From Obelidium mucronatum (taxonomy: Eukaryota > Chytridiomycota > Chytridiomycetes > Chytridiales > Chytriomycetaceae): a DNA stretch of 64,000 nt. Position 1 is the stretch's first letter, and each line of letters starts with the position of its first letter. A program made the position numbers and the translations under genes. The stretch lies in contig JAIVFH010000045.1 of NCBI GenBank assembly GCA_025765595.1, forward strand, positions 203,708-267,707, read 5' to 3'. Positions 3,246 through 51,489 of the stretch are shown here, piece after piece. The notes under the pieces were generated by a model. The model ran no database searches. It was not told the origin of the DNA and saw only the letters and a list, made by a program, of their open reading frames with translations.

Positions 3246-3856
3246 AATCTGTTCAGGTCTTGGATGGCCTGCATCAGGATTAGGCCTTTTTTTACTTCCT
3301 TGACTTGTGTTTTTTGTTTGTTGCAGTAGCCAGGCTCCCTAGTTTGAAATAGTACCCAAAGAACAACCCCTTTTCAATCTTTTCAGCTTTGATCATTTCC
3401 AGACTTTGTTTGTTTTCATGTTTGTTTTCATAAAGTTGGGAATCCCCATTGGTTGTAACTTCCAAATGTCAAGAATGCACAAAAATAAAACTCAGGTATA
3501 ACTTTAAATTACATTTTCTAAATATAGAACTACAAGGAATTGCCTTCCAACTATGGTCAGCCGTTTGACCAAATATTATTTTTTCAAAAGAGAGTCAAAA
3601 TTCAATATTTTTTTTAACACACAGTCAAAAATCCCTCTTTTTTTTTAACACAGAGTGAAATCGAATTTTTTTTTTCAACACAGAGTTGTTATCGGAAAAA
3701 ATAACAAGAGCGACGAAACTAATAAAAACCACTACTGGCAGATTTCTGCACATTTAAATCAACGTTATATGTAATTTACTCAGATTTCCAACACATAGCA
3801 GTTGTCGTAGAGTTTGGGCAGTTGTGGCAAAAGTTCTGAAAAAAAAGAGAAGAAAA

Positions 3857-6800
3857 ATGACAACAACTGCATGTGTCAAGTGCAGTTGTTGCAACCAGTT
3901 TAAACCGGCTGCAACAGTTCAAATTCTTGATGAGAAGCAGTGGTGCACTGACTGCCTTTCGAATCTGGTGAAGGACCGATCGCAAACAAACAGTTCACCA
4001 TCAGTGGTCACAAATGGGGTTGCATCAAGAATGCCAACATCATCAGCAAACACAAAAACATTGCACGATACAAGGTACAGATGTCTTTATTGTTGTCGTC
4101 ACTGACACTAACGGCTCATTCAGGAATGTCACCTCCTTTTTGAGCGGGGTTCAAACTCTCCAATCGCAAGCTGACGCAAGCTCAAGCACTGGATCTGTAG
4201 CTGACGCAGCAAGTGCCGAAAGGCGCAATGTTATGGCACCATACAAGCCTTACCAAGGTCCCAATACGCTGGTTGCCCCTGGGGCAACAATATTCAAGAA
4301 TCGAGAAAAGCGCAAAGTTTCAGAAAAGTCCACCGTTGGTTCTAACAAAAGAAGCAACCCTATTCAATCAATTATCAAAAACCATTCCAGTGGTTCATCG
4401 GGCGTCAACCAACAAATCCCAGCTGATAATAGAAACGGCGGAATGGGTTACAAGGGGAAAGGGGTGACTATTAACATGTATTACGTCCCTCGAACAATGT
4501 ATTTTGACGACAAAGGGAATCGTCATGACATTTTTATCCTTCCATTTGATGAAATGTAAGATTTGTCATTTGTGGGCACCCATACGTGAGCTTATTTCAA
4601 ATTCACAGGCAAAAAGAACTCAAAACTCTCAAACTGTTTCCGGAAACGATTACAGTCAATTCGGGACTTTTGAAAAGTGCGTTAGAAACATTTGCGAAAA
4701 AGGGATACCAGATGACTGTCGATTCTCAATGTCCTTTTGACAAGCTTAACTGGGTTCTGATGAGTTACGAAGGAGGGTATCAAGTTGAAGGAAAGGTGAT
4801 GTTTCAGCCCGAGTGCTCTTCGGAAAGACTTGAAACAATGTGGCAGCAACTTCAATCAGACGCGATGCTGAATGAGCAAGCCAAAGGACATGGCTATTAC
4901 CAGCAGATCAGCAGTTATCAGAGCACGTTCCAGCGGAGAACAAAGAGCTATTTCGTCCATGCGTTTCCTAAAGATCAACCACTAGTTGGTGAGTAATTTT
5001 AAAACATCAATATTAGCTGACGGATACCACCAATCAGGGAATCACAGTATTGTATCTGGCATTGCGGCTCACCAGTTAAAGGATGGAATTGCTACGATTG
5101 CTAAAACTGAGAGAGACCAACCCAGCGACAGCGAAGACCACAGTGACGACCACAATGGGATTGGGACACGCGCAGCAACTAAAACAGTGGAATATCCCAT
5201 GTTTTCTTCAGTTGATATGGCGTTTTCAACTGAAAATATTGGTGAAAGCTCACAACAACCTTCTCAGCGTGCTCGACCAATGATCCACTTAGATTGGACA
5301 CATGACAATCCTCCCAGCGACGACACAACCGTATCTTCAATTTCGACAACGTTGCCGCCAGTTGATGATGATATTCTCCAACTCCTTGACGCTGACAACA
5401 ATTTCCATTTGGAATTGGAGATGGCGTACTTTGCGTCGCAGGAATTGTCAAACAGTTCGGAAGCACTTGATCACACTCCTACAACCTCATCCTCTTCAAA
5501 TGAACTAGAGCCGACGGTGGAAGAAATACGGAATCGGTCTGCCATGGCTGCTGTCGCAAGAGCTGCTCAACCAACGCCAGGATCTCAAACAGAAACTGTG
5601 CAACTACTGGGTCAGAACGATCAACAAAACCATCAAAACACTGAATCATCTACTCTTGCAGAAAACACAGAATCATCTACTGTTGCAGAAATTACCGATA
5701 TCTTTGCTGCTTGTGATCGTTTGCGGACGTGGGATTCTGCGCGTCTTGGTATCCCAACAGGGGAAAAATATGAAATTAGGCAACCTGCCGGTGGCTTTAC
5801 AGCGTACAACATTGAAGGCCTTCTTGACGATGAAATGAGTACCCGGTCTTTTGCAAAACTTCCTGTTTTGCAAGATAATCAAGAATTCCCTGCGTTTGAT
5901 GCTCGAGGCTCAGTATTGGCACAAACGGCAGTATTTTTTGGTGAAGAGAGACTTAAATCAAATGAGTTTGAAGGAGAAACTTTGAGACATTTTGGTTTGA
6001 CGGAGCGAAAGCCAAGTGCACGATTGCGTTTGAGCTACATCAGCTTTGGAAAAGTACCGATTATTCATGTCTTTTCTGCTTATTATTAACATGATTTCTT
6101 TCATTTAGTACCTGTGTTGGGGCCTTCTTCATCGCGCTGATGCATGCATGTTTCCTTCTCAAATGGCACCACAAATGCTACTGAACGTTTTAAATGCGCC
6201 TGTAAGTTGGTACACGCGCGCGATGGTTGAAAGAAGTGGAAATGGGAATGTATTCCAGTTTATTGGCGCTAATCGCAACTACTACTGTGAAAGTGTGAAG
6301 GGAAGGATTGTTACCCACAATATTTGGGCTGATGAATTGGAATTGGATCAGTATGTGTGGGGGCCCGATGTAAGTTTTGATACACTCAAAAGGGTTTGCT
6401 AATATCTGTCACAGCTTGATAGGGATTGGGAGGCAGCCTTGGATAACGAATGGGAGGCATTTGTTATTCTGGCAGAATGTGTTCTGAAGTGCTACACTGC
6501 TGCAGGACTTGCGCGACGAGGTTTTAATCATCATTGGCTCACAGATGATCAAAGTGAGGAAGAAGGACATGTCTATGAGCTCCCAGACTTTCAACAGCTT
6601 TTTCCCCTTGTCGCGAATCTCTTTCGAGAACCAACAACATTTGATGAGTATCGAAAACAGTTTAAACCACTTGCATTGACTGCATCTGATCGTGAGCGCC
6701 AGACTTGGATGGCATGGATGGAAATTGCAAGAACTTGGACTTGCCAGCAGTACTGCAGAAGCTTGCGATTGATCACAGGACAGTCATTTATCCCTGTGCC

Positions 6801-6987
6801 GAAATTGATTGCTCTTTCATTCACTGCACAGCCAAACTATTGCAAGTACTCCACTTGCTTCAGCAATGTTAATGTCAGTTTTTACGATGTTTGTGAGGAG
6901 GGAGTTGATGGGGTGGCGTCTGGTATGTTTGCTGGGTTGATTGCGCCAGATATGTCTGACGAAGCCCTCAAATTTGGAGCAGTTTAA
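3857..6987 (+). CDS. HECT-type E3 ubiquitin ligase-like protein carried by the transposon
   Basis: Exons 3857-4074, 4124-4555, 4609-4988, 5038-6053, 6109-6369 and 6415-6987 join in frame to 959 codons. A further 57-nt in-frame intron at 6202-6258 is possible. The N-terminus has a small Cys cluster (CVKCSCC ... WCTDC), probably zinc-binding. The middle is acidic and Ser/Thr-rich, low complexity. The C-terminal ~350 residues follow the HECT order: an N-lobe stretch FFGEERLKSNEFEG; then YLCWGLLHRADAC like the G-x-x-x-A-x-x helix; then LRLITGQSFIP like the RxLLxFxTG box; and finally KYSTCFSNVNVSFYD, like TCFNxLxLPxY with its catalytic Cys. The usual role is transfer of ubiquitin from E2 to substrate. 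The gene converges with the transposase, 41 bp apart. Similarity is judged by motif only. Confidence 0.6.
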
Positions 6988-7028
6988 TAATACATAAATT
7001 CATTTATGAAAAATACAACTTTGAGCTC

Positions 7029-8865
7029 TCAATTTTCAGATTGTTCTTCACTTCCTTCATCTTCCGCTACGTCACTGTCGCTGTCAAAAATGCTGTCGAC
7101 ATTCACATCATTCTCTTGCATCATACCGTTAACAACTGCCTTAGCATCTCGAAATATGCGAGCCCCATGTTCTTGGTCATCAGACAGCATCACATCCTTT
7201 GGAAACATATGATGGAAGACTTCAAGCTGCATTGGGGTAAGGGGGCACTGAATCTTTCCAACACGAGCTCTTTCAGCTCTTGGATTTGGCATAAAGTTGC
7301 TGAAGTCTCCATCTTCAAATCTCTCACGTCGAGGTCGTCCATGAGGATCGTCTCCATAAATCTCAATTTCCCCATCATGCAGAGAATCTCCCACAGGGTC
7401 ATCCACAACAGATCGGCTTTGAAGAAGTAAACCCACGTTAAACACTAAGTTTGGTGATTTGTAGTGATGCATTCGCTTTTTATGATTGTTGTGAGCTTCT
7501 CGAAACTGATCCAGAACGAGTTGAATTCGTGGCAGAAATACTTGATGCAGAACCCAGAGCTCCCATGTATTATTCACATCCAAGCAGTCCCCTTCCATTT
7601 CCTGAAATACTTGCTTGAAATCGTCAATTACTTTCTTCCCCAAGTCAAGATTGAATCGTTCAATTCGCTGATTATGGACAGATCTCCCAGCAATACAAGA
7701 CCCCCTTCCTAGGCCATTCTTCTGGATCACATATTCTGCAACAAGGATATTTTCTCCACCTGTTTGCGCAAGATATTCAAAACAGTAACAAATCAAAATG
7801 CACCAACCTTTATCGCATCTTACTCTGGAAGGCGTTCCATACGTGGCGCATCCACTCAAAAAAGCTTGAAGTACAGTTTCAGGACGGTTATTGGTTGATA
7901 CTTTGGCATAAGTGCAGAGATGTGAAAAGCCATCGATTCCTAGCAGCCAGGGTTAAGATTGAGAATAGAAAAACGCACATCTTACCTGCGTGAATAACAA
8001 ACTTCCATTTGACTAATTTGTGGTTTCCATCAATATGCTGGAGTGCACGTGGTCCAATAACTGTATAGCGACGCCTCACAATCGCATGCACTAAACGATT
8101 GAATACGCCAACTGGGTCAGCTTCCTTAACAGCACAACGAACACGTTGCCTTGTTACACGAATACCAAACATTGACCATAAGTGAGCTGCAATAAAGTCC
8201 GCACCTGACTTTTTGTGGATTCGGAATATATCGCGCACTTTTCCCAGCAAGTCAATGTCGGTAATATCCGACCATGAGTATGGATCTATGAACGCTCCAT
8301 TTGCAATTGCTTTTTGTATGGTGTTCATAAGAGTTGTTCGGCTTATATCTGCACAACTTGCTATAAGTGACCAAGTGGCGCCATACTGTCTCAGAACATG
8401 AACTTGAGCCAAGTTAACTTCCTTTTTTGGTCGGCCGGCACGTCCAGTTCTAGCAATCTCTACAGTCAGTCTCCCAGAGTATTCCTCCTTGATTGTATCA
8501 TCCACTTTGGTAATCAAATGTAGCAATCGTGCTTCCACATCAGACAAGTTCTCGATTATGGCTTCTGACAGTTTTGGACCCAAACGGTTCTGCTGATGAA
8601 CCACAAACTGCAGAAGGGCTTCAATGTAACCAACCATCTGTTTCATTGTATCCCGATCCATTCGATGGCGTTTCTCAGTTCTGTAAGCCCTGCGTAGAGT
8701 CATCAGCGCGTATTCTGAAACATTGGCAATGAAATCTTGATCGTGTTGATTCCTGTCAAGAATCTCGGCCGTTTCATTGATATTTGCATCAAAAGCATTG
8801 TCCATGATCACATCTTCAAGGTCGTCATCCAGCTCATCCAAGTTGAAGGGTTGACCAAGGTCCAT
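7029..8865 (-). CDS. Integrase-type DDE transposase (rva_4 / IS3EU-like)
   Basis: Exons 8865-7986, 7939-7808 and 7759-7029 join in frame, with introns of 46 and 48 nt. The start is the first ATG of the open frame. The N-terminal acidic helical region is followed by a helix-turn-helix part (GRPKKEVNLAQVHVLRQYG, ATWSLIASCADISRTTL). The catalytic core shows the RNase-H fold triad: D in LQHIDGNHKL, D in SRVRCDKGGEN and E in SVHNQRIERFN. These match the family typified by WxIDGNHKL, SDxGxEN and HNQRIER, annotated as an integrase core domain in many fungi and animals. The C-terminus is acidic. The triad is intact, so the enzyme may be active. It lies inside matching TIRs and is the likely mobilising enzyme. 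Confidence 0.85.
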
Positions 8866-9014
8866 TGTTTTTCTTCTTTGTTTCAAGATGTTTCACTTAT
8901 TGGGTAATAGACTTTATTGAGATCCCATCACTGGAAATCACCAAAATCCAAGAAACTCGTCCAGTTGATCGCTGGCCTTGGGATTGCGGCACTTTGTTGG
9001 CATTTTGTGAACAA

Positions 9015-9051
9015 AATAAAATTAACGCCGTCTGACGGCGTTAATTTTATT
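9015..9051. terminator. Perfect 16-bp hairpin with poly(A) signals on both strands
   Basis: Arms AATAAAATTAACGCCG and its exact inverse enclose a 5-nt loop (TCTGA). Each arm carries AATAAA/TTTATT, so it could give poly(A) signals in both directions. It lies upstream of the transposase and downstream of the zinc-knuckle gene. The role is inferred. Confidence 0.5.
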
Positions 9052-9102
9052 GACCATCAACAAACACCAATCACCAAACAAACCCCAACCACGTAACCGA
9101 AC

Positions 9103-9412
9103 CATCCAATACGGACGAGTAAACCAATTCCATCCAAGAACGGACAAGAATTCTTTGTCAAAACCCATAAACTCAAACCAAACCATCCAAAACGGACAAG
9201 TAAACCAATTCCATCCAAGAACGGACGAGAATTCTTTGTCAAAACCCATAAACTCAAACCAAACCATCCAAAACGGACAAGTAAACCAATTCCATCCAAG
9301 AACGGACAAGAATTCTTTGTCAAAACCCATAAACTCAAACCAAACCATCCAAAACGGACAAGTAAACCAATTCCATCCAAGAACGGACGAGAATTCTTTG
9401 TCAAATATTCAA
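9103..9412. repeat. 81-bp minisatellite, nearly 4 units
   Basis: Units start at about 9103, 9184, 9265 and 9346, each beginning CATCCAAAACGGAC or a variant; the period is exactly 81. The period is divisible by three, so long frames stay open on both strands (NQFHPRTD... on plus), but there is no other coding evidence. It sits between two minus-strand genes. Confidence 0.85.
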
Positions 9413-9433
9413 GAATCAGGACAAACTTCACCT

Positions 9434-10210
9434 TTATTTATAGTATTGATTAATAAAGTTATTGTTGCATTGTACACATTCAACAGAATTACAGTTACGG
9501 AATCTACACACGGCTGTAGAATGGCCAGGAATGCAGCAGTGAGAACAAGACCTGCTCTTTAAAACCCTGTCAGCGTCCCTTTCCTTGCACTGCGGCTTTT
9601 CACACCCGAGATACCGGCATACCAGTCTGCATGTTTCACGCTGATGTTGAAGCTGCCTATCAAGTCGCAAGTCGCAGTGCTGGCACTTGAGATTCTTGCC
9701 AGCAGATCGAGCTTCTTTTTGTCTTGCCAAGTACACGTGATAACAGTGTAGCATTCGCATTGTCACAGTTTCAGATTCAGTTCGCTGCCGTTCTGGAGGT
9801 GACAGTGGCTTTACTTTCAGGCTTTCCTGTAGAAGTATGTCGCCTGCCCAATCTATCAGAAAACATAAAGAAACTATGTCAGATTGAAGAAAATGCAGTT
9901 ACCTTCAACGTCAGGTGTGGCCCAAAATTCTTTTTTCAGGGCGGCAGGATTGAACGATTCTGCCGAATCCATATCAAGCGTGTCCCCCTCCTCGGTCTCA
10001 GACTCCAGATCCTCACTCAAACTCTCCACTTCATCAAATTCGACCCCTGCCTGAGGCTAAATGTGTGAGAGAAGAATTTCAGCAGAGCCGTTCATTCAAT
10101 ACCTGGTGTTGATTGACAAGGTTGCTCAAAGGAATCCCAACCTCCTCGTAGCTACCGCTCTTTTCATATCGACAAATTACGGACGCAAGGTGGTACTGAA
10201 AACTGCTCAT
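9434..10210 (-). CDS. Cysteine-rich zinc-knuckle protein of the transposon
   Basis: Exons 10210-10103, 10056-9903 and 9852-9434 (introns of 46 and 50 nt) give about 226 residues. The frame also stays open upstream of this ATG (KVPPKKCSSKLEARKKPVK), so a further 5' exon may exist. The middle is acidic (ESLSEDLESETEEGD). The C-terminal 90 residues hold CQHC, CRYLGCEKPQC, a canonical CCHC knuckle CSHCCIPGHSTAVC (C-x2-C-x4-H-x4-C), CRFRNC and CVQC. Such clusters bind zinc and often nucleic acid. The function is unknown; a DNA-binding partner of the transposase is a guess. It is divergent from the histone-like gene, with about 157 bp between start codons. Confidence 0.6.
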
Positions 10211-10366
10211 TGGTTTTTTTAGTTTGACAGGTTTTTTTCTGGCTTCGAGCTTTGATGAGCATTTCTTGGGCGGGACTTTGGGCGGGATTTTCACCAATCT
10301 TTTTCAAAGTTAAACTGGAAGCATTATTATTATTATTTTTTGAAAGAAAGGTTATCTCATTCAAAC

Positions 10367-11152
10367 ATGGGTAGAAAGCGGCAGCCACCAAAACGACTGG
10401 ATTCAGTTGCTCAATCAAGTCAAACACACTCAATCAACAACCGGAACACCAAAAATCAAAAACTTACTCTTGCTGGAGTTCATGGTCCATTTCGGGCTCT
10501 TCGCGAGATTCAAAAGTATCAAAAGATGGATGGACGACTGCTTTTAACAGCTTCATTTCGTCGCATTGTAAGAGCTTTACATAAACATTTTTATGCCTCT
10601 CTCATGTCTATTCAACAGATTCGTACAGTTACAATTGAACTGTTCACTGAGGCTCGCGGAATTCGGTTTGCTGCTCAAGCTCTGGAGTGCATCCAAGATG
10701 CTGCCGAGGCATATCTTGTAACACTTATGGAAGATGCCAATCGCGTTGCAATCCATGCAAAACGCGTAACATTGTTTCCAACTGACATACGGCTTGTAAA
10801 CTATCTTCGTCGGCATTCCCTTCCTTCCAACAGCTCTGAAGTGAAATCAGCTGGTATTCCCCACCAAAATCTGAATGTTGATGAAATGAATGAAAAGCTT
10901 CTTCCGAGTACCGCTGTCCATCCAAAAGCAAGGCGTGGACGATTAATTGCCACTGTTCCAGCTTGTGGGGAATCAACAAACAAGGCTGACAAAGACTTTA
11001 TTCCAACTGGTCAAAAGAAGCGTCAAAGAATTACTGCCGGTGGTGAAAAGGATGGAACTGAGGAAGAAATGGTGTTGCCACGGAGAAGTCGTCGACGACT
11101 GACAGTTGTGCAAGATAGCGATTCAGAGACTGGTCCTGCTTCAGCTGCATGA
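10367..11152 (+). CDS. Histone H3-like protein, centromeric-H3 (CenH3/CENP-A) type, carried by the transposon
   Basis: Exons 10367-10567 and 10619-11152 give 244 residues. After a 40-residue basic tail (no canonical ARTKQTARKS) comes an H3 fold in order: RALREIQKYQK (alpha-N), ASFRRI-IRTVTIELFTEARG (alpha-1 and loop 1), IRFAAQALECIQDAAEAYLV (alpha-2) and EDANRVAIHAKRVTLFPTDI (loop 2 and alpha-3). From the alpha-1 RxxR to the RF that opens alpha-2 there are three more residues than in canonical H3. A longer loop 1 is a CenH3 hallmark, as is VTLFP in place of VTIMP. An unusual ~105-residue Lys/Arg- and acid-rich C-terminal extension follows. Histone identity is strong; the CenH3 assignment is inference from loop length and divergence. 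The frame is intact. Confidence 0.8.
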   Translation: MGRKRQPPKRLDSVAQSSQTHSINNRNTKNQKLTLAGVHGPFRALREIQKYQKMDGRLLLTASFRRIVRALHKHFYASLMSIQQIRTVTIELFTEARGIRFAAQALECIQDAAEAYLVTLMEDANRVAIHAKRVTLFPTDIRLVNYLRRHSLPSNSSEVKSAGIPHQNLNVDEMNEKLLPSTAVHPKARRGRLIATVPACGESTNKADKDFIPTGQKKRQRITAGGEKDGTEEEMVLPRRSRRRLTVVQDSDSETGPASAA

Positions 11153-11258
11153 TATTGAACTAAACCTGTAAAATTATTGAAATTAATGTGAGGGTCTTTT
11201 CCACAAATAAATTGATTTGTGGGCTCATTTGTTTGCTGCCATTTGCACCATTTTTTTA

Positions 11259-12905
11259 ATGAGAAACGTGCGATACTGGAGGCATGACCCCAGCCCAATA
11301 CCGTTTCATGGGCCAAAGATTGTGGAGCTGGAATCTACGTACCACACAGGTAGAGATGGTATTCAGGAACAGGACCAGCAGATCATTCGGTGGGGGAGCC
11401 AGCAGTCCGCAGGAAGGAGCGAGAGATCCGCAGGAACGAACAGCTCCCATGATTCAGTCCAACTGACCACAGATACTGTGCCATCTGCCAATGGTGTGAG
11501 TTCTGGCTGTATCGATGATGATATCAGTGGAACAAGCCGCACAGCATCGATCCTACTTCCCAAGCCAAAAAGACCAAAGAGATCGGTTTCAGCTGGTAAC
11601 ATTTCCAATCCTTCTGGGCTTACTGGAGGAGGGCAGCAGCAAAGTTCTTCTATTCATTCCAGCATTCGAATCATGTTTCCACCAGTATCTGAGTATCCTT
11701 CTACCTCTCTTCCTCCCAATACATTGGCAGCTGTTTCAACCTCTCCTCCTCCTAATACATCGGCTGCTGTTTCAACCTCTCCATCGACCGCTGTCTCAAC
11801 CTCTCCATCGACCGCTGTTTCAACCTCTCCATCGGCCGCTGTTTCAATCTCTCCATCGGCTGGTGTTTCAACCTCTCCATTGGCCGCTGTTTCTATTGAC
11901 GACCATGCTCTGACTCCATCTTCAAGTGCCCCAAACCCTGTTTTACCTACCGGAGCTACTACTGCTTCATTTTCTAAGGCTGTTCCAGCAGTTGAAGCAC
12001 CTGTCACTGGATGGTTGAAGCTATCTGTTGTTATTCCCCAGAATATCAAAACAGTTAAAGTGAAAGTGCCACACTTCAATTCAGTGGTGCACTTCAAGGA
12101 CGTTCTCAATGCCGTCAACAAGCTTCCCATTCATGTTGCTGGTGGAATTGCCGAAACAGTATGCATCATTGGTGAAGATGGCGTGGAGGACTGGACATTT
12201 GAAGGAGAAATCAATCTCCATGAATACCCAGCAAACTTATTTGCAGTCTACTTAAAGGCGGGAGATCCTTTCAAACCAGTGGAAATCCCACCTGTCTCTG
12301 GTTCAAAATCTACAGTGTCTAAACGAGTACCAGCCCAGGATTCCGCCCCAACACTAATTCAGCCTTCTGATTCTGCCTCCCCGTCTGCCTCTACAGTCAT
12401 CAAAACCGAAATTAGTAGAGCCAGCAACACAGTGGGACTGTGCCTGCGGCAAGTTGAGTTGTTTGCTGCAAAGTACAGTGAAACAAAAGCAACTTCAAAA
12501 TCAAACACAAAGGGGACATCGAAGAATGCTGTTGCACGAGCAATTATTCAGGAAAACGCTGTAGAATGCTCTACTTGGCCAGCAAGTAAGTTTAAGAAAA
12601 CGCGTTAAGCATTTCTCACAACTTTCCTCCGAATAGCTGGGGATATGTACCTGTATAAAGCAGCCATTTTTGAAACATCAGCACGATTAAGCCAAATTTC
12701 AGCACTACGTCATGTGTCGTTGAAGGACGCATCTCGTGCGTCTGAGCCTTTTGATATCAAGAAAATCACCGTTGAGTTGACTGGGTTGTTGGACAAGGTG
12801 AATGTTGGGCATAACATTGACATTAATGTTAAGGGAGGAAACACAAAATTGTGGGCAATGTGGGGTACTTTTCATAAGTCAGAGGCTTGGTTACAGTGGA
12901 AATAA
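11259..12905 (+). CDS. Unknown Ser/Pro-rich protein of the transposon
   Basis: Exons 11259-12585 and 12637-12905 (51-nt intron) give 531 residues. Residues ~150-215 are a tandem run of AVSTSPS-type hexa/heptapeptides, probably disordered. A compact middle part begins at GWLKLSVVIPQNIKTVKVKV and continues DGVEDWTFEGEINLHEYP; its alternating hydrophobic pattern could be a beta-rich fold. The C-terminus (GLLDKVNVGHNIDINVKG ... KLWAMWGTFHKSEAWLQW) is also ordered in appearance. I recognise no family. It follows the histone-like gene on the same strand by about 100 bp and is inside the TIRs, so it is most likely an accessory gene of the element. Confidence 0.6.
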
Positions 12906-14273
12906 AGTTTCATATTAATAATCTTTGCTTTTTATCCCCAATCTAATTCTTTTTGAATGGAGTCAAATGCCCCCGAATCATTTGCCCACTAATGAGCAAG
13001 ATGCCCACTTTCGCGATTTAAAGTTGCATTCTGTTTTCTTCTTACATTCATTCCTTTGTTGCTTCTTTTTGTTCTTTCTTTCATTGTTCCTTCTTTCCTT
13101 TGTACCTTCTTTCCTTTGTTCCTTCCTTTCCTTTGTGGGCAAAATATTCTCCCAAAAAATGCCCGTCTTTCCACTATCCCTGACTATAGCATTGATTACA
13201 GCATTGATTACAGCATATAACGCACAGATGCAGAAGGGGGAAGATCTCATTGCGACCTTCTGGCCTCCTTCATCTACGTCTGTGTGTTGCTGCCTTCTAT
13301 TTGCTTTCTCCATATATCCCCCCACATGCAATTCAAAAACAACTACCTTTGTGATTTAGTGTTGTATTCTCGGAAGGAGCATGGGATGAATCGACTATCA
13401 GGCCAGTTGACGTTACCTTCTATGTGAATTCCTTGGTAAAACCAACAGTTAAAAGTTGCCACAGACAAGGTCTTGCAAACCAAATCAAGACTATGAATCC
13501 TCCTAAGTGTTATTTTTTATCAGTGTATCAAATCAGCTCTAACCAAAGCAAACAGTAGCAACCAATTTGAACAACGGCAATCATTATCAAAACCTGAACA
13601 GTCATACAAGGGAAAATTATCTTGTTTATTTTTGTTGGTAATTCTGTTTTATTTGAAAAAAAGACACAAAACATGGAAGGTAGGAGACATAGTTGTAGTC
13701 AATCACGCGTGATTTACGGGGCCATCGTTGGCTGAGGGAAAGCGCGTTTGTCGACGTCAAAAAATTAGTTGGTCTCGGACAACAATTTGACATCACACGC
13801 GCTCCCACCTCGACGCACACGCCACCGGTCATCATTCGAACTCCCTCGCTCTCTGTATAAAAAACTCCCACCCCCCCTGTTCCTTGCTTCGACCCAAGAC
13901 GAGCTGCCAGCTGCCATTTGTGGGGGCCTACCATCGTAACCTCCACCGGTCTTTTCGCTCTTCCTTGGGTACATTTGCACGGTTCGAAGCGGTTTGGGGG
14001 TGCCATCGCACCTACCTTCTCTTTGTCGTGAAATCCCAATAAAGGCTTGTTTATTGCCACTTGTTGAGCGATAAACATTGTGAGGAATTGAGCGGTGCCG
14101 TTCGATGGGTGCACTTGGCACAATTCACTGCATAGCTTTACACACCGTTCCACATTACACTGCCACCAAAAAAATTAAGACGTGCTAGTGCCACTGTCTG
14201 ATCAAGTCCTTTTATTAATGTTGCAAACCACAACTGACTCATTACTCGAAGAACACAAACCACATTAACCTTC
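12906..14273. other. Gene-poor stretch of the transposon
   Basis: Contains a TTCC/TTTC-rich tract near 13045-13135 and a TATA-like TGTATAAAAAAC at about 13853. Open frames on minus (13626-14153) lack a good ATG, splice support or a recognisable domain. Nothing here can be called a gene. Confidence 0.5.
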
Positions 14274-14960
14274 CTATGGACCAAAATTCCCGCAAAACAC
14301 TCCATTAGACTCATTATCAGAATCCGAACCCTCATCCGACGTGGTTTCAAAGTAGTGCGCTAAGTCACCACAACTTTGATCCATCATTCCAGCCACCACC
14401 GCAGAATCAACATTGGTGATGTATCTCACAACAGCTTCGGTGCAGCTTGGGAATCTCTTCAGCCACAGTACAAGAAAACTTCTTTTATCGCACTTTTCCA
14501 CCAGCACAAGTCGTGGCTGCAGTTTAATCTTGATCAAGCGCTTAAGCCACTTCTGAAACCCTTGACCATAACCACCACCATTGATAGGGAACCCAATGCA
14601 CCACAGGGCTGCCAAATAGTTGTAGTTTAAGCTGTTTACCCAGCTGACAGATAGCTGACGCCGCACCAACTCTTCATTTCGTTTTTGATGTCTTTCACGA
14701 ATAGCACAAGCAGGTCCTGCTCGCGGAACGTCCGAAACAAGTCTTGTCCAATAATGGATGTCTGTTTCAGGTGGATTTTGCGTAAATCTGTCTGACAACA
14801 GGTGTTCCTTAGCAAAGGTTCGGTCGTTGAGGATTGCTGCAAACTGCTTGTTGGCTGCACCAACAACATGGAAGAGATGCCTGCTGACTGGGAGCTTGAT
14901 CAAAATCATTTGCACCACTTCAGGAGGAACACCATATCCCGACGGGTATTGTGAAGTCAT
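14274..14960 (-). CDS. F-box-like protein of the transposon
   Basis: A single exon of 228 residues starts at the ATG at 14960. The N-terminus, GVPPEVVQMILIKLPVSRHL followed by FHVVGAANKQFAAILND, fits the F-box pattern (hydrophobic P-x-E-hh-x2-Ih-x2-L, then a helix with aromatic and small residues). F-box proteins link substrates to SCF ubiquitin ligases through Skp1. No leucine-rich, WD40 or kelch repeats follow. The rest has conserved-looking stretches (SWVNSLNYNYLAALWCIGFP) and an acidic tail (TTSDEGSDSDNES). It is the last gene before the right TIR. The F-box assignment is by pattern only. Confidence 0.5.
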   Translation of the reverse strand: MTSQYPSGYGVPPEVVQMILIKLPVSRHLFHVVGAANKQFAAILNDRTFAKEHLLSDRFTQNPPETDIHYWTRLVSDVPRAGPACAIRERHQKRNEELVRRQLSVSWVNSLNYNYLAALWCIGFPINGGGYGQGFQKWLKRLIKIKLQPRLVLVEKCDKRSFLVLWLKRFPSCTEAVVRYITNVDSAVVAGMMDQSCGDLAHYFETTSDEGSDSDNESNGVFCGNFGP

Positions 14961-15292
14961 TTTTAATGACCTTGCCATCAGACTTATCTGTTTTATACCG
15001 CATTCGACGGAGGCCAGTGTGTGACTTTTTTTTTTCAAACATGCTCTATGTGTTAAATATTTTCTTGTTTATGAACTCTTGTGGGAAAAAAAATATTTGT
15101 GCAAACTGTGTGCAAAAAAAATCTGACTTGCATGATATGTTGCAAAAAAAATAAAATTAAAGTGCTACCTGTTGCACAAAAATCTGGGAAATGTCTATAT
15201 CTTCCAAATAAATAATATTTGGTCAAACGGCTGACGGTATCCAACCCCCTCAAACTCCCCCTTAACATGACAGGTTGACAAGCAACCTGCAA

Positions 15293-20385: not shown

Positions 20386-22385
20386 ATGAAAATCCCTGCC
20401 TCACATGTCAAGATGGGAGCTCAGCTGGCAGAACAGTTCCCAGCCTTCCAAGCTGAGTTTTCAATCTACGGCAGTTTTGAAAAGACTTACAACAAGACAC
20501 TCCGTTTGCGGGATTTCATTCAGCTTCTTGCTACTTCTTTTGGCGTTCCCATCCTGGCAGCCAAACAAACTGCAGAGGCTGTCTTTGATTCAAGAATTCA
20601 CGAAACAATTACCCCAAATGTACCTATTATCCTGTCAGCTCCGTTTACATACTGCATCAAGTGTCAGAGCCATCTAAAGATTGGGAGATGGCAAGAAGTC
20701 ACAATCTTGGATGCAGATTCAGCTAAATCGGGTCTTCCAATTCTAAATACTACATGACTGTTGCATTTGCAAATTTGTGGCTGAAGAATGTGCCGTCTGT
20801 AATGCTGTAAGTGTTGGTCCTAATAGCACTCCTAATAGCGATCCTAATAGCGTTCCTAATCGCACTCCTAATCGCGCTCCTAATAGCGTTCCGAATTGGA
20901 AGTGAATCGGAGAGCGATTAGGAGCGCGATTAGGAGCGCGATTAGGAGCGCGATTAGGAGCGCGATTAGGAGCGCGAATTGGAGCGCTATTAGGATCGCT
21001 ATTAGGAGTGCTATTAGTAGTGTTTGTTGCTTGTCATTTACTGACAGACTATTCCTTAGATGTAAAATGTATACTCTGCAGAATGCATACCATTCAGCAT
21101 TTCCATCTGTTTCATCAGATACTGAACAGTATTCAGGGATTCCTTCAGCTGCATCATCATCTATTTTCAAGCGGGCGTATTACTTGTACCAGATGCTCCT
21201 ATTGCAAGAGTACATTCAGGATCCAGCAGTTTCAGAGGCGCTTCAAGCAGCTCATGAAGATTTTGATTATTGCTGCTTCCAACCATCTTGGGGGGAGAAG
21301 GGCAGACGGCTGTTTCCGTATTCCCTACATCTTGGAGAGTACTCAAGCAATCAAGTGTCTGATAATGTAGAAGATTTGCGGTTGGCAATGAAGGAATATG
21401 TGGAGTGGATGAATGCGCACTTTGCAGTAAAATGGAAACATTCATGTGGAGAATGTCATGTTGTTGATAGCAAAGGCCAGGAGTATAGTGCAGCAGTGAT
21501 GGATGGAAAAGTGATGGGGCACTTGCTGTGCAGAGTGATTGGATGCAATTTGGACATCATTGGGATCAATACAAAATTCTGTATCAATCATGCAGGATTG
21601 AAGGGGAAATGCATCATTTCAGGATGTGCGAATCAAAAACGAGAACGTGAGAACTCTTTTGATTACCAGCCGCTGTCGTGCAAGGAAGTAGAACATATGG
21701 AGGCGGTGGGAAAATTCTTCTCAGACCCATCAACAACAAGTGAGAAAACTGCAAAGAAGTATGGTGGAAAGACACGAGTGTCAGTGGGGCATGTGAAGGA
21801 TGATGAAAGGAATTATGAGGAGTTTGGGTTCTGTTACAGCCCATTTGACAGATTCCTGCCAGGGGTGTTCCTGGTTGTGTGGAGCTGTGGGCACATTATG
21901 GACATTGGGAAGATGTACTCGTTTGAGTCCAACAAGTTTATCACAGGATTTCTTTGTCAAACATTCATGAGGCTGGAAGAGTATCCTACATTCATGTTTT
22001 ATGACAAAGCATGTGTTTTTGTCAGGACTTTGAAAAACGGCGCTCAGCAAAACAAGCTGCTCCACAAGTAAGGATGTATTTGCTGTGATAGAATCTAACT
22101 TCTGTACTTAGGATGCTATACCAAAAAATCATCTGGGTTGTTGACCGATTTCACTTCAGAAACCATAGTCGTCGAGACAGATTCTGCATGGAGAATTGTG
22201 ACGCTAGGTCTTTTGCTAGGCTATACCAAGGTAACAAGCCTTTATTCAACACATCAGCAGCAGAACAGTGTGCTGGATGGTTTGAAAAAATGGGACACAT
22301 TTTGCGATATTTGGACCCTCTTCAGGCAGACTTTTTTTTGTTCAGCATGGTGTACATGAGAAATGAGCAACTGAGCAAATGTTAG
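20386..22385 (+). CDS. KDZ-type transposase with CxC5/CxC6-like cysteine clusters
   Basis: Exon 1 begins at 20386 and is open to about 20730. A repeat-filled intron follows; its exact donor is unclear, and a CICKF...CAVC segment at 20764-20807 lies in another frame. The main exon is ~21060-22067, with a 44-nt intron 22068-22111 and a last exon to 22385. Exon 1 ends with a Cys pair (FTYCIKCQSHLK), CxC5-like. The main exon has CGECHVVDSKG ... CRVIGCN ... FCINHAGLKGKCIISGC, CxC6-like. The core follows with GHVKDDERNYEEFGFC, TFMFYDKACVFV and VVDRFHFRNHSRRDRFC, then NTSAAEQCAGWF. CxC5/CxC6 clusters are known to precede KDZ transposase domains in fungi. The exon-1 boundary makes activity uncertain. 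Confidence 0.7.
20813..21020. repeat. Inverted arrays of the 12-bp repeat in the transposase intron
   Basis: About six CTCCTAATAGCG-type units are followed directly by about ten units in the opposite sense (AGCGCGATTAGG), making a long imperfect palindrome around 20890. It is the same motif family as the intron array at 19510-19745 and the element ends. Confidence 0.8.
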
Positions 22386-27040: not shown

Positions 27041-27789
27041 CGTTTTTCTCTTTATAAGTCTACAGTTTGGTTCAATAAAACTCCTTGTTTTCTTTTATCC
27101 TTCTGACTTGTATTAGTGCGGTCACTTGTGGTGTTGTTGCTGTTGGGAGTGTTATTCAGTTTATCTTTTCTTCTTTTCTCCCTTTTTCTTTTCTCTTTTT
27201 CTATAACGTTTTTTATTCTTTCTGTTGGGTCTGTGTATTTGGTGGGGTTGGTGGGGTCAGAGGGGTCCGTGGGGTCACGTTGGTTGGTGGTGATGCTGTG
27301 TAGGACTTGTGTGTAGTTTCCATTCGCCGCACTCAGCCAGAACCCACCAGCCAACAGTATGTGGGTCTGGCGTCGACGGGGCAGATGCATCGCGCACAGC
27401 CGGGGGTCCCGTTTCGGCTGCCCCTTCTCCGTCCCTTCTTGTTGGGTTTGACAGTCGTCTGTCCCCCCCAAGATCCCGCCAGCGATCACCTCTTGGCACT
27501 GACGTCGACGGGGCATATGCATCATGCATAGCCGGGGGCCCCGTTTTGGCTGCCCCCTCTCCGCCCCTTTTCTAAAAATCCATAGTCCAGGTTCCGCTCC
27601 AGATCCAGATCCAGTCAGACGTCTATCTATCCGGCGCTGCTTGTCGCTGCTTTTCCTACAGTAAAGAGTGTGGTAAGTACTGTATTGGTAAGTACTTACT
27701 CCGATGATCGCCCATGATCCAGATCCAGATCCAGAGAGTCGTCCGGCCCCCGCGCGCTCCGCTGCCGCCACGTCATCCCACCCACCGTG
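27041..27789. repeat. Probable LINE 5' region with two GC-rich direct repeats
   Basis: GTCGACGGGGCAGATGCATC (27373 on) and GTCGACGGGGCATATGCATC (27502 on) head two ~70-bp repeats about 129 bp apart, each ending in GGCTGCCCC...TCCG. GATCCAGATCCAGATCCAGA occurs at about 27715. Promoter monomers of a LINE 5' UTR are one explanation. No gene. Confidence 0.4.
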
Positions 27790-28067
27790 GACAGCACAGC
27801 AGACGCGCGAGGACCCCCGTTGTAGGGGTTTTTGTTTGTCTGCTGCATTCGGTGGTGTGGTTTGTTTGTTGTGGTTGCACGCGTCAGAGTTTTAAAGATT
27901 TTTTTTTCGGAATCAACGTCTTGTTGCATCCAGGATCCAAGATCCCTTTGTAGAGTTGTGACATTTCTTTCAAAGTCTCTTAACAATACAATGGAAAACA
28001 ACAATGCGATTTTACTTAAAACTAACAACAAAACAACCCAATCACAAACAACCAGAAAAACTAAATT

Positions 28068-29245
28068 TTAAGAAGAAAAGAACAATAAACACTCAGGCGT
28101 TTCTGAGAATTCCATTCCCAGGCATCCAACCGACATGTTTAGGTTCAATTCCAACATCATTTTTCGCCATGTTTGACTGAATTGCGGGAGTCCCCTTGGG
28201 TTTTTCTCCTCCCCCCTGTTGGTTTTAACACGCTTCTTATTTTGAGGACACGAAGAACTGAAGTGATCTGTATCACCGCATTCCCAACAAGAACCGCATT
28301 CCCACTCCAGGTTGTGAAATCCAGAACAGTCATCGCACTTCGGAAACTTTCGTTGTTTTGAAGCCACTTTCTGTGATTTCTTTGCGTTCTTCTGTTGTCG
28401 TGAGCCCATACTTTTGCTGCTTTTTATCAGCAAGGCCCGTGATCGTGACCTTTGCGACTGGAGCGTTACGTTTGTTTGCTTCAACGTAACTGTCCCACAA
28501 ATCCACCATTTTCTGCTCCAACTCTTTGATGGACAGATATTGCAGGTTGCTTGTCAACCTGTCATGTTAAGGGGGAGTTTTGCAGGTTGCTTGTCAACCT
28601 GTCATGTTAAGGGGGAGTTTGAGGGGGTTGTAGGCCAATTCCTTGTGGTTCTATTTATAGAAAAGATGTTCCTACTTTGTTCAAATGGTTTGAGGGTTAA
28701 GAAGGGGGTTTTCAATAGCTCTATTATTAGAAAATGGACATGTTCAAGCTGTTGCTTCCTTGGTAAATAAAGGAAAATTGACTTGGAAACCAAAGTAACT
28801 CCAGACAACACAACTGTCTCAAGAAGGGTTTTTTGACCTGAGTAATCATATTTTACTGATTTAATTTTCCGGCTGCTGCCATGTCATGCTTGTCCACCTG
28901 AAAACCAGAATAAGCGTTTGTCTAATTGATTTCATCAACTAACACAAGCCAGATTAATGCCTAGTAAGCAGTACAGATTGCAGGTAGACTCATGATGAGA
29001 ATCAGTCTCCTTTTGGGTTGTTTGACATCTTCTGGTTAAGTGTGGAAACAAAGATGACAGTTTCTTTTAATTTTCTGGCAATCAAAATAGAAATTCTGAC
29101 TTATTGCAAACACCCTAGAAAGAAAATTTGTGTTTACAAGTTTTGTAATCCCATTAAGTCCTAATTTCTCTGGAGTTGCAACCTGCACTGCGAAGAAGCA
29201 AAGTGACTGAGCGTATGTCTCTAGTTCCTGGAGTTTGAGGGCCAT
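28068..29245 (-). pseudogene. Gag-like CCHC zinc-knuckle gene, split by a Helitron-like element and frameshifted
   Basis: Codons 1-7 (MALKLQE) lie at 29245-29225. The frame resumes exactly at 28539 (YLSIKELEQKMVDLWDSYVE), so excision of 28540-29224 restores the reading frame. It then stops at 28330. The knuckle CWECGDTDHFSSSC (C-x2-C-x4-H-x4-C), preceded by CDDCSGFHNLEWECGSC, lies in another frame (28484-28068), so a frameshift or a missed intron is needed. Retrotransposon gag or another nucleic-acid-binding protein; the family is not recognised. Confidence 0.55.
28540..29224 (+). mobile_element. Helitron-like element, 685 bp, complete
   Basis: Inserted between A28539 and T29225 with no target duplication. 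Starts TTGCAGGTTGCTTGTCAACC and ends GCAACCTGCA, then a ~37-nt tail to CTAG. The first 40 bp are duplicated in tandem (28540 and 28580). No coding capacity is seen. Confidence 0.85.
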
Positions 29246-30631
29246 CACCGCCTGAGCAAATCAATGATCCTACCGCAAGTGCACCTTCTTTTGTGAGTCG
29301 AATCCCAAATGAAGAGTTTCACCCAAAGAAGTGCACTAATCCACAGGTCGCAAGTGGCCCGCTAGCGGCTCGTCATCAGGTCGCAAGTGGCCTGTGAGCG
29401 GCTCCCGAGGTCCGGCTTGCTTCCCCAATTGTATTTGCTGTGATAAGAATCTAAATTCTGTGCTTAGGATGCTATAACAAAAATCATCTGGGTTGTTGAC
29501 CAATTTCACTTCAGAAACCATAGTTGTAGAGACAGATTCTGCATGGAAAATTGTGACGCAAGGTCTTTTGCTAGGCTATACCAACGAAACAAGCCTTTGT
29601 TCAACACATCAGCAGCAGAACAGTGTGCTGGATGGTTTGGGACACATTTTGCGATATTTGGACCCTCTTCAGGAAGACTGAGGTGCGGTGGCAAGCCATC
29701 CGCTAGGACCTTTTTAGCTCTGAATTTTTTTTTAGAACTTTTAAAGAATAGTACTGCATAAAACCGAGTCAATACTTAAGAAAGAGCAAGAGCAAAAGCT
29801 CGTCTTTCCATTGATAGAAGGAATGTATAATATGATTGGTAGTATAATCCGGCAGTTGTACCAAATTAATGAGACAAATCATCTTGTCTTCAAATTTTTT
29901 TAGGGGGCCAGAACTTTCTTGAATAAGCCATGGAAAGTTTTTGCACAAGTCTTATGGATATCAATGTCTTTGAGAGAAAGCTACATATAAAGTTTGAGGG
30001 TTATTGTTTGCACGGTCCAATTGAGCAATGGTGATCCAATGATTCAAGACCCCTTGAAGTTTCTCAGGGGGCAAGCCAAAGCCAAGATAGCGGGAAATTG
30101 GGTCAGAGTAATGGACTTTGACTTATCAGAATTGGGCAGCAAAATCTGACAGATACGTGAGAGGGGGCACAGCAACAGCACCAGGAGCACACCCAGCCAC
30201 CAGAGCCAGATTACAATTCCGAACTTTGATCCACAACCAGCCAGGCATGAATTTTAATTGATTTACAACCACACCATTCACTGTTGTTGATATGAACTAC
30301 TCATTTGGAGCAACAGCAAATCCCAAAAAAAGGCCAAAGTTCCCTTGGCAAAGATCTTCAAGTGTTCCAAATCTGGAATACGCTTTGTTATCATCACAGG
30401 CTTTCCGAGATAGAATTCAAAAGTGAGGGGAATTTTGCTGGTGGCATTGTCATTCGGAAAACCAAGAGCCTTCGCTACAATCTGATAGCACACCAATTGC
30501 TTCTTCCAAGCCAAGTCCATGACTGCCTACCGCAAGACAGCACATTGTTCAAGATTCTTTGCAGTAGCCACTGGAGCAAAGAGTTGGCAAGACATTTGAC
30601 AAAGTAGATTGGGAACTTGCAGCACTGATTG
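29246..30631. pseudogene. Remnants of KDZ-type genes and ends
   Basis: 29342-29430 is a GC-rich end of KDZ family 2 (CACAGGTCGCAAGTGGCCCG). 29431-29680 matches the last intron and last exon of the KDZ transposase (VVDQFHF..., MENCDARSFARLYQ, NTSAAEQCAGWF), with a deletion after WFG and a stop. On minus, 30520-30278 has AVMDLAWKKQLVCYQIVAKA and IPDLEHLKIFAKGTLAFFW, an unrecognised coding relic. 30622-30631 (GCACTGATTG) is the target duplication of the next element. Confidence 0.55.
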
Positions 30632-31902
30632 TGTCCCCATAGCCTTGCGAGCCGCTAACGGGCCGCTTAGCAGGCCGCTCGCGACCTGTGGGCGCCCCAC
30701 GTGCGAGCCGCTAACCAGTGGAAAGCCACCCGCGTCGCAGTTAGTTCACAGGCCAAAAGCCAGTTGACAGCCAGTGGAGAGCCAGTTGAAAGCTAGTCCT
30801 TACTTTATTTCAAAAAAGGTAAGAAGCAATAAGCAGAAAAGTTTTAAAACCATAATATATGTATTTAAAGTAATAAACAAAATCCAAAGTACCAACAATA
30901 AACAAAAACAAAGAAAGGATGCGCGAAGTCCAAAATAACAAAATATTGAAGAAACAATAAATAAAAAAACCCCCGATCAGCGCTTTGCCTTCTTGCTTGC
31001 GCTTCCTTCCTGAAGCGGCTCCCGCCAATATGCCTTCTTGACATGTTGGTTGTTTGCAAAGGCCCGAAGCACCACATACGTCTCTGGCTTGCGCTGATGG
31101 CGGCTTTGCCCAGCCTTGTAGAAGTGCAGATGGTTGAATGCTTGGATGAAGCTGCCAGAATTGTGGTTTTCGTCAGGAACACCAGTATGGAAGGACAGCT
31201 TTTTGGTCCATTCAGCAAAATGACGTTTCGCTAATTCAAAAGTAAATGTCATTCCGCTGTATGTTGCAAAGAAGCACTTGTACTTCAAGAAGATCTATAG
31301 CAAAGTCAGAAAACGCAGATAACACTCAATAAACATGAAATCACCTTTTTCAGCTCCTCATTGTACAAATGGAGCCCAACGTACGCATGTCCAGACTCCT
31401 TCTTGTCAGGGAAGTTGACCAACCCAGTCTCCTGCTTGACCGTTCCCGGGTTCTTGTCCTTTCGTATGTTCCCTTCAGCCAACAGCTTGCAGTAGATGAT
31501 CGCATACTTCATCACATCATCGACTTGCTTCTCCTTCACTCCTCCCGAACGTCCCGCTGGTCGAAACACAATTGACGACTGCGTCGAAGTTGATTCCATC
31601 GAATCACGGCGGGAGCTGCCGGAGCCAGAGCTTGGAAGCATTGGAGTTGAATACAATTGCGATGACAGTGGGGTCACAACGGCAGGGCGAGCGAACACTG
31701 GTTGCGAGACTATGAATAAAAAGGCAGGGGTTAGGCTTGTGGCTCGCGCCCCACATAAAAAGGTACAGAGCGGCCTGCCAACAGGCCGCGGCACAGGTCG
31801 CAAGCGGCCCGCTAGCGGCTTGTCAGCAGGTCAAGCGGCCTGTGAGCGGCTCGTGATGCGACCGGTATCGCGCCTCGCGAGGTCTGGCCCGCATCCCCAA
31901 TT
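30632..31902. mobile_element. KDZ family-2 non-autonomous element carrying only the accessory gene
   Basis: Flanked by GCACTGATTG (30622-30631 and 31903-31912; the true duplication is probably 8 bp of this). The left end has GCGAGCCGCTAACGGGCCGC ... CGCGACCTGTGGGCG; the right end holds the inverse (CACAGGTCGCAAGCGGCCCG). It encodes one minus-strand gene and no transposase. Confidence 0.7.
30977..31709 (-). CDS. AYVG-domain accessory protein of KDZ family 2
   Basis: Exons 31709-31345 and 31294-30977 (50-nt intron) are in frame. An acceptor TTCATAG at 31710 implies a short upstream exon in the GC-rich end that I could not place. The N-terminus is Ser-rich (LPSSGSGSSRRDSMESTSTQ), then SGHAYVGLHLYNEELKKIFL and a C-terminus FTFELAKRHFAEWTKKLSFH ... 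NSGSFIQAFNHLHFYKAGQ, ending in a basic tail. The spacing of AYVG, FF/YF, W/Ser and F-x3-Y matches the last two exons of the accessory gene at 17112-20361. The role is unknown. The frame is intact in this copy and split in the second (37683-41948). Confidence 0.6.
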
Positions 31903-31912
31903 GCACTGATTG

Positions 31913-33849: not shown

Positions 33850-34486
33850 TTGCAGGTTGCTTGTCAACCTGTCATGTTAAGGGGGAGTTTGAGGGGGTTG
33901 AAAGGCAATTCCTTGTAGTTCTATTTTTAGAAAATGTATTTATTTTTGTGCATTCTTGACATTTGGAAGTAACAACCAATTGGGATTCCCAACTTTATGA
34001 AAACAAAAATAACAAACAAAGTCTGGAGAATGATCAAAGCTGAAAAGATGGAAAGGGGGGTGTTCTTTGGGTACTATTTCAAACTAGGGAGCCTGGCTAC
34101 TGCAACAAACAAAAAACACAAGTCAAGGAAGAAAAAAATGGCCTAATCCTGATGCTGGCCACCCAAAACCTGAACAGATTTGGCATATGCCAGGGTTACC
34201 CATACTAACATGCCAGGGTTACCCATACAAACATGGCAAAAAACACTTTGCAGAAATTTTTCTGTATGTGTTCTATTTTTCTTGCTAACAGCCCTAGACT
34301 TGAGAGGGGGGGGGCCAGTGGGAGACTGTAGCTTTATTAATTTATTGTATTGTATTCTATTGTATTGTATTTGTATTGTATTCTATTGATTGTTTTCTAT
34401 TGTATTGTATTGTATTGTATGTATGGTATTCGTATATCAGCTACAGTCTCCCAACCAGCTATGGTATAGTATAGTATTGTATTGTA
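33850..34486 (+). mobile_element. Helitron-like element, truncated by the duplication junction
   Basis: Starts TTGCAGG after A33849, identical in position to 44034. It runs through the GGGAGACTGTAGCT unit and ends in the microsatellite at 34486, where duplication copy 2 begins. Confidence 0.8.
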
Positions 34487-34764
34487 GACAGCACAGCAGA
34501 CGCGCGAGGACCCCCGTTGTAGGGGTTTTTGTTTGTCTGCTGCATTCGGTGGTGTGGTTTGTTTGTTGTGGTTGCACGCGTCAGAGTTTTAAAGATTTTT
34601 TTTTCGGAATCAACGTCTTGTTGCATCCAGGATCCAAGATCCCTTTGTAGAGTTGTGACATTTCTTTCAAAGTCTCTTAACAATACAATGGAAAACAACA
34701 ATGCGATTTTACTTAAAACTAACAACAAAACAACCCAATCACAAACAACCAGAAAAACTAAATT

Positions 34765-44000: not shown

Positions 44001-44033
44001 TAGATAAGAAACAACCACCCAACATTCAAGAAA

Positions 44034-51149: not shown

Positions 51150-51489
51150 TACTTGCTGGCTCTTCTGTGTTGTCACTAATGGGTTGAATTTGATGGGGAT
51201 TTGTTCTGGGTGGGTTTGTTTTCTTCAGATTTTATTTCTTGAGACTGTTTTTTTCCTTTTGATTCATCAAAAAATCCATTTTTGGAGGTCCCCCAATACC
51301 TCAGTGATTTTTTTACAAGCTCTGACCCTAACCCTAAAACCACTCATGACTGCTGCATTTGCAAATTTGTGGCTGACAAATGTGCTGTTGCTCCTAATTG
51401 CAGCCGATTCAGCTCCTAATCGAAAGACAAATTGGACTCCTAATTGATGCCATAATAGGAATAGAAGTCTGATTTGCCGCAAATTGGTA
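51150..51489. other. Flank of the KDZ shell with a short KDZ relic
   Basis: 51351-51400 (ATGACTGCTGCATTTGCAAA) closely resembles 20753-20800 of the KDZ transposase gene and runs into CCTAATTG motifs. TGACCCTAACCCTAAAACC at 51323 is a two-unit telomere-like stretch. The upstream part continues the Myb-like gene on minus. No intact gene. Confidence 0.4.

Follow-up and report, generated by a model that had tools for sequence, protein, structure and literature searches.

Canonical histone H3 genes have been described within hAT transposons of the Dothideomycetes Pyrenophora, Pseudocercospora, Cercospora, and Sphaerulina (PMC6710886). Among these, P. tritici-repentis has 23 apparently functional hAT H3 copies, while the H3-bearing hAT element of P. 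fijiensis has TIRs and a TSD, and copies there and in relatives are inactivated by RIP (PMC6710886). The same source describes the hAT H3 as captured in the form of an intronless transcript, with RIP inactivation in six genomes, the original excepted (PMC6710886). TET/JBP genes similarly pass among fungal transposons, including IS3EU, Plavaka, Zisupton, Kyakuja, and others (PMC12730594), and Phytophthora HarbingerS/MuDR transposons carry SET (cited in PMC12730594). With respect to terminal structure, IS3EU elements have TA..TA ends and usually 6-bp TSDs (PMC10045372), rust IS3EU families have 6-bp TSDs with TAYGG..CCRTA ends (PMC12730594), and PlavakaB elements have CATCA..TGATG ends (PMC12730594, section 20).

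The locus described here lies in the chytrid Obelidium mucronatum, in a 64-kb stretch of DNA (64,000 nucleotides, hereafter the window) at one end of contig C45; the genome searched comprised 48.3 Mb in 694 contigs. Like the hAT-H3 elements, this is a fungal DNA transposon that carries and amplifies histone H3 sequence (PMC6710886), and the lack of any precedent implied by an earlier note on this DNA is not supported, given the canonical H3 already described in hAT elements of Dothideomycetes (PMC6710886). Unlike that canonical H3, the histone here is a diverged variant with its own tail and extension, an intron, a partner gene, and low dN/dS across families. As in the TET/JBP transposons, chromatin-related cargo is found in superfamilies unrelated to one another, IS3EU and PlavakaB among them, and the terminal signatures are largely the same (TAYGG..CCRTA with a 6-bp TSD; CATCA..TGATG) (PMC12730594). 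However, the cargo is a histone with a putative chaperone rather than a DNA-modifying enzyme, and the host belongs to the chytrids, which a word search does not find in the main text of PMC12730594. The likeness to the Phytophthora SET transposons is that the cargo acts on nucleosomes, being a histone-acting enzyme there and a histone here. Among the matches listed from open-licence PubMed Central texts, no transposon was described as carrying a CenH3-like histone or a variant H3 accompanied by a dedicated partner.

Scm3/HJURP is the chaperone of CENP-A. The gene pair resembles CenH3 (CENP-A/Cse4/Cnp1) with Scm3/HJURP in its H3 fold, its longer loop 1, and a weakly Scm3-like partner with zinc clusters, but the transposon histone differs from CenH3 in its tail, C-terminal extension, and tree position. 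The host CenH3 (C55/C209) and host Scm3 (C35:146274–146487) are encoded separately, at other places in the genome.

Results

An IS3EU-type transposon carries a histone gene

The element is an 11,688-bp DNA transposon with ends TATGG..CGGTA (3552–15239), its limits set by homology to a second copy on contig C15. Both copies of the TSD TCCAAC were read directly (3546–3551 and 15240–15245), and the left (3552–3591, forward strand) and right (15200–15239, reverse strand) TIRs hold inverted repeats at 3556–3591 and 15200–15235 that are 89% complementary, such that the flanks read TCCAAC-TATGGTCAGCC...GGCTGACGGTA-TCCAAC. The 6-bp TSD and TA..TA termini fit IS3EU; the left end TATGG conforms to TAYGG, and the right end CGGTA is one base off CCRTA. 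The earlier note had placed the gene between matching TIRs and a 6-bp target duplication, which is confirmed, although the TIRs lie far outside the segment 10367–11152 to which that note referred.

The C15 copy is flanked by GAACAG-TATGG...GGTA-GAACGG, with a TSD matching at 5 of 6 positions, and is 92–96% identical to the window in the four longest blocks. Similarity is confined to 3552–15239, within which window positions 13121–14107 are mostly replaced or missing in C15. The histone occupies the same place in both copies. The shared gene position in C15, together with homology between the window and C15 that stops at the TIRs, rules out both the chance capture of a host gene by a single copy and an insertion of the histone after transposition. 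Scanning the whole genome for the TIR (≤3 mismatches) returned six places, two each on C45 and C15 and one each on C313 and C295. The histone is present in each of the two copies that have both TIRs (2/2; C45 and C15), whereas the C313 copy ends with its contig before the histone position, and C295 holds a relic from which a large internal part is deleted, with no histone match on that contig. TIR copies consistently lacking the gene, which the earlier note would have taken as the sign of a host gene caught by chance, are therefore not what the genome contains. Taken together, these observations support a histone H3-type gene that is both located within a DNA transposon and part of it.

The transposase gene (rva_4 integrase core, PF24764) is located at 7029–8865 on the reverse strand, with its ATG at 8865 and putative introns. 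Its two ORFs match Pfam, at 1.5e-32 (rva_4) and 3.2e-6. The earlier note listed an intact DDE enzyme; in both the window and C15, the reading frames of the transposase stay open once the predicted introns are allowed for, and dN/dS between the two copies is about 0.2. No histone match was found within the 9–10 kb read around each of the related rva_4 transposases on C124, C101, and C182. Between the transposase and partner genes lies a hairpin with a perfect 18-bp stem and a one-base loop (9015–9051); both arms recur in C15 (1-base loop) and, with a wider separation, in C313. An 81-bp tandem array of 3.8 copies occupies 9095–9405. Three forward-strand ORFs had no Pfam match and gave dN/dS values versus C15 of 0.40 (4014–4559), 0.42 (4986–6089), and 0.20 (6439–6987, with a premature stop in C15). 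Two further ORFs, at 11217–12608 (forward) and 14274–15038 (reverse), have three single-base indels and one single-base indel in C15, respectively.

Several further pieces of mobile-element or regulatory type were observed in the window outside of the element. These include an ORF with a GCR1_C domain (516–1640), a CxC6 cluster associated with KDZ transposases (20896–22071), a DDE_1 endonuclease (38865–39704), and a Copia-type reverse transcriptase (RVT_2; 54392–55603). Near-identical direct repeats (99.6–99.9%) of 3.5 kb and 1.3–1.8 kb span 27787–38036 and 31330–44646, which suggests recent duplication or other mobile elements.

The encoded histone has an H3 fold and a noncanonical tail

Spliced, the H3-like gene (10367–11152, forward strand) encodes 244 amino acids without a stop. 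Exon 1 (10367–10567) encodes the tail and alpha-N; a 51-nt phase-0 GT..AG intron follows (10568–10618), at the position of the intron in host CenH3, and exon 2 (10619–11152) encodes alpha-1 to alpha-3, the C-terminal extension, and the stop. Pfam Histone (PF00125) matched residues 30–130 at 1.4e-23 and 83.9 bits, above the curated cut-off of 26.4, which rules out a non-histone family for this 244-residue protein. The closest solved structures were H3 and S. pombe Cnp1 (∼6e-18), with which residues 43/44–131 align. The product thus bears out the spliced 244-residue H3 fold with intact frame that had been claimed, and alignment agrees with a loop 1 three residues longer than in canonical H3; the C-terminal extension (10820–11149, forward strand) is present as claimed, but at about 110 rather than ∼105 residues.

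Evidence for the intron comes from the C15 copy, in which it is 50 nt long and the histone frame is broken if unspliced, all 244 codons remaining open only when spliced. Consistent with this, the public gene model P0034, a distant relative on C62, is spliced at the homologous place, joining FAAL to VREV. The public model P0001, from the broken C10 copy, interprets the intron region differently; it is the closest public protein to the window histone among the matches listed.

The tail begins MGRKRQPPKRLDS and contains nothing resembling the canonical H3 tail. The canonical ARTKQTARKS/ARKSA sequences bearing H3K9 and H3K27 are absent; the earlier note had likewise called the tail noncanonical. 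Residues invariant across the transposon, C35, CenH3, and H3 sequences include H113, R116, T118, D123, and L126, which we take to be positions of the H3–H3 interface and of DNA contacts. AlphaFold2 modeled exon 2 of the histone with a mean pLDDT of 63.5 and the partner with a mean of 46; Foldseek searches with these two models were uninformative (best E 1.9).

The histone is paired head-to-head with a Cys/His-cluster partner gene

Directly upstream of the histone, and divergent from it, is a partner gene predicted to encode 226 amino acids (9434–10210, reverse strand) from three putative exons (10103–10210, 9903–10056, and 9434–9852). The two start codons are separated by a 156-bp spacer (10211–10366), which may serve as a shared promoter. 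Alignments of the partner family show that its Cys/His clusters, among them a CCHC-type knuckle, are conserved. The partner matched no Pfam family, and no homologue outside this genome was found at E ≤ 0.01 among 170 candidates in a search that reaches relatives sharing short words. In C15, 13 bp are deleted from the partner gene. The earlier note mentioned neither this partner nor the occurrence of the pair in other transposon types.

Genome searches with two partner versions identified 14 loci. With C313 and C118 left out, since the contig start cuts the histone side of each, a histone match lay head-to-head with the partner at 11 of the 12 assessable loci (C45, C15, C2, C202, two places on C10, C20, C62, C36, C35, and C221); C33 had a partner match without a histone match. 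Conversely, with canonical H3 and host CenH3 set aside, histone-matched places on C678, C73, C6, C28, and C143 had no partner match. Further histone-fold fragments without a detected partner were seen on C73 (L031), C28, C528, C85, C49, and C112. The LPSN motif follows the fold in C73 as in the transposon histones, while C528, C85, C49, and C112 matched the general histone model only and may not be H3.

One conceivable role of the histone is dominant interference, in which it would draw H4 or chaperones away from host H3 or CenH3, weakening host chromatin generally and opening targets for insertion. Retention of the core residues alongside a divergent tail and extension would suit such a role, yet it would not require a dedicated, co-conserved partner, and we regard this explanation as very improbable.

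The partner N terminus was compared with Scm3, an idea that arose post hoc, after the sequence had been inspected. Pfam Scm3 (PF10384) returned nothing for the partner at E ≤ 10 and, across the genome, only the host's own Scm3. A profile that combined host Scm3 with the Scm3 portion of 2L5A was then used to score 715 ORF N-terminal segments taken from the window and from twelve loci, a set that contained the family members. The C2 partner N terminus and its sister copy ranked first and second (11.6 and 10.0 bits), the C35 partner N terminus, added separately, scored 8.0 bits, and 6.8 was the highest score among apparently unrelated segments. For the partner encoded in the window, the score was 3.9 bits, a value reached by three apparently unrelated ORF segments. 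Among 1000 shuffles of each, the score was attained by none for C2, none for C35, and five for the window. A weak Scm3/HJURP likeness of the partner N terminus is thus suggestive only. Zinc fingers have been reported in Scm3 homologues of various fungi (PMC8997354, citing Aravind 2007).

The pair occurs in a second type of transposon

Stretches on C20 and C62 share ∼99.5% identity over at least 4.3 kb before diverging, and C36 is 96.5% identical in two blocks, with a right end common to all three. The C20 stretch comprises a Plavaka transposase ORF (PF18759, 1.6e-15, profile positions 188–322 of 325), the partner, and the histone; C62 contains ORFs corresponding to the C20 transposase, while C36 lacks the intervening stretch that holds it. 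PlavakaB was assessed by CATCA..TGATG termini with a 2–3-bp TSD. The right end TGATG is present in C20, C62, and C36, and a search for the left end and TSD of these PlavakaB-like elements found neither. On C10, a pair is enclosed by two identical 23-bp inverted repeats containing CATCGCAG, and the CATCGCAG repeat was seen at one end only of C2 and C202 within the 8 kb read. No transposase was identified in these three CATCG-ended elements, which by their CATC ends may be relatives of PlavakaB. Given the IS3EU and PlavakaB-like loci, the pair is present in at least two unrelated transposon superfamilies.

Several transposon copies of the histone are broken, by an internal deletion in C202, a stop and a deletion in C10, and a frame shift in C6. 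Such decay would be expected if the genes were passive cargo, that is, if a host H3-variant and partner pair like that on C35 had been transduplicated and were hitch-hiking unused, as with the hAT-borne H3 of Dothideomycetes, for which capture is published (PMC6710886). The C35 locus may be viewed as such a source: its partner is paired with a histone close to ordinary H3, and the 6.6 kb read there had neither a long inverted repeat nor a sequence matching the window transposase, while none of nine other ORFs fell into a Pfam family. Just downstream of the C35 histone is a SET-domain ORF (L027:1907–2977; C35:36811–37881; PF00856, 2.3e-8). Because transposon-borne SET genes are known elsewhere, the C35 histone, partner, and SET ORF may alternatively constitute a three-gene chromatin cassette. 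Against unused cargo stand the head-to-head pairing conserved in different transposon types, the 732-nt histone frame intact in both full copies of the IS3EU-type element (C45 and C15), and the retained intron, whereas the captures reported in PMC6710886 are intronless.

Selection on the histone was estimated at two time scales. Between the window and C2, representing two transposon families, the histone fold gave a dN/dS of 0.091, at a dS close to saturation (2.2), with higher values in the tail (0.32) and the C-terminal extension (0.43). The recent window and C15 pair gave 0.65 on 18 changes, which does not demonstrate present selection on the histone of the IS3EU family. Low dN/dS of the fold is thus shown over the longer time scale, and this value between two families also argues against passive carriage, a reading that we consider decidedly unlikely.

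Intron position, but not the unconstrained trees, aligns the transposon histones with CenH3

The phase-0 intron occurs at the same place in host CenH3 (C55/C209), the C35 variant, and the transposon histones (junctions FARV|VREI, FQRL|IREV, FRRI|IRTV, FERL|IRQI, and FAAL|VREV). In contrast, none of the four canonical H3 copies inspected has an intron, and that of the near-canonical C100 copy lies at a different place. Host CenH3 was identified by sequence reading and tree position; the probable ordinary host CenH3 is found on L029/L030 (C209, C55), the flanks of which differ somewhat, perhaps as two alleles. A profile search with the transposon histones gave 792 matches, 120 of them listed, and 12 of those listed were inspected, as were 7 matches from a single-sequence search with the transposon histone. 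Ten of the 12 were ordinary H3 or CenH3 types; P0034 among them is an Obelidium mucronatum protein from this same genome, and P0035 (Lotus) is a double canonical H3.

Trees were built from 28 and 24 proteins over about 100 columns, with the CenH3 label of the Synchytrium and Dipodascopsis proteins being our reading rather than the source name. The window, C15, and C2 histones clustered (100/99–100), with the C35 variant nearest (91/73 in one tree), while the fungal CenH3s, including that of the host, formed their own group (89/97 and 93/97) apart from the transposon histones. The C20, C36, and C73 histones lay far from the other transposon histones, and a single origin of all six was not rejected (p 0.28, or p 0.32 with C35). 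Five constrained groupings were tested. Placing the transposon histones with C35 and fungal CenH3 in one clade cost 0.40 log-likelihood units (p 0.43), and groupings with fungal CenH3 without C35 (p 0.11), with C35 and all CenH3 (p 0.27), and with two fungal canonical H3s (p 0.27) were likewise not rejected. Grouping with all five canonical H3s cost 11.3 (p 0.043), a weak result because the other four of the five groupings were not rejected.

The phylogeny suggested in the earlier note separates the transposon histones from CenH3s when unconstrained, yet does not reject their union with fungal CenH3, with or without C35; the trees neither establish nor reject kinship with CenH3. Its description of the histone as centromeric-type stands for the three-residue-longer loop 1, a feature insufficient by itself to define CenH3, and for the intron position, but not for the free trees, in which C35 is nearest and the transposon histones fall outside the CenH3s. 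A CenH3-side origin is slightly favored.

Satellite arrays with 291-bp, 136/147-bp, and 289-bp units, interrupted by gaps, extend from window position 51489 to 64000, up to the contig end, and could be centromeric or subtelomeric. These arrays enter into a possible direct link to centromeres, whereby the transposon histone would be a true CenH3 relative acting at or near centromeres, or would render element DNA centromere-like; insertions might then be steered to centromeric chromatin, or excised DNA kept through division. The loop 1 and intron features, the latter unlike canonical H3 copies and C100, accord with this link, as do the Scm3-like ranking of the partner, the low cost of union with C35 and fungal CenH3 relative to that with canonical H3s, and the 136/147-bp and 289-bp arrays at the window's contig end. 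However, the free trees part the two groups, the 0.043 is weakened by three other groupings also going unrejected (p 0.11, 0.27, and 0.27), and the satellites begin ∼36 kb away and may be subtelomeric. On balance, we consider a centromeric role unlikely.

Discussion

The reading we prefer is that the two genes form a chromatin kit, with variant nucleosomes loaded on the element by the partner such that silencing is evaded, and we would place its probability slightly short of even. By this mechanism, the H3 variant would pair with host H4, and the partner would bind the histone through its N-terminal Scm3/HJURP-like motif and DNA through its C-terminal zinc clusters. Engaging the histone together with H4, the partner would place variant nucleosomes on the element or on its promoter. 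As the tail is not canonical, these nucleosomes, devoid of K9 and K27 sites, could not take the usual silencing marks, which would leave the element expressible, a logic like that proposed for transposon-borne TET genes. The host genome has two matches to Pre-SET, presumably the domain of H3K9 methyltransferases, as expected if H3K9 is methylated there. The presence of the same pair in unrelated elements suggests that elements may build their own chromatin. More tentatively, and with clearly less than an even chance of being correct in full, chytrid DNA transposons may carry a CenH3-derived histone and a Scm3-type zinc-bearing chaperone, exchanged between superfamilies, and write their own chromatin identity with them.

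Chromatin cargo of DNA transposons was already known. What appears to be new, judging from the literature listed, is cargo that is itself a component of the nucleosome: a diverged H3, accompanied by its own partner across several superfamilies. As the host also retains a CenH3 and an Scm3 of the ordinary kind, encoded separately, both systems can be studied side by side within a single nucleus. Transposon-borne enzymes that edit DNA or histone marks have been recognized; a transposon-owned histone maintained by selection together with its partner would, if true, mean that a selfish element supplies the nucleosome. This opens to tests the question of how selfish DNA evades or builds chromatin, as well as that of the origin of new H3 variants, possibly including new centromere histones.
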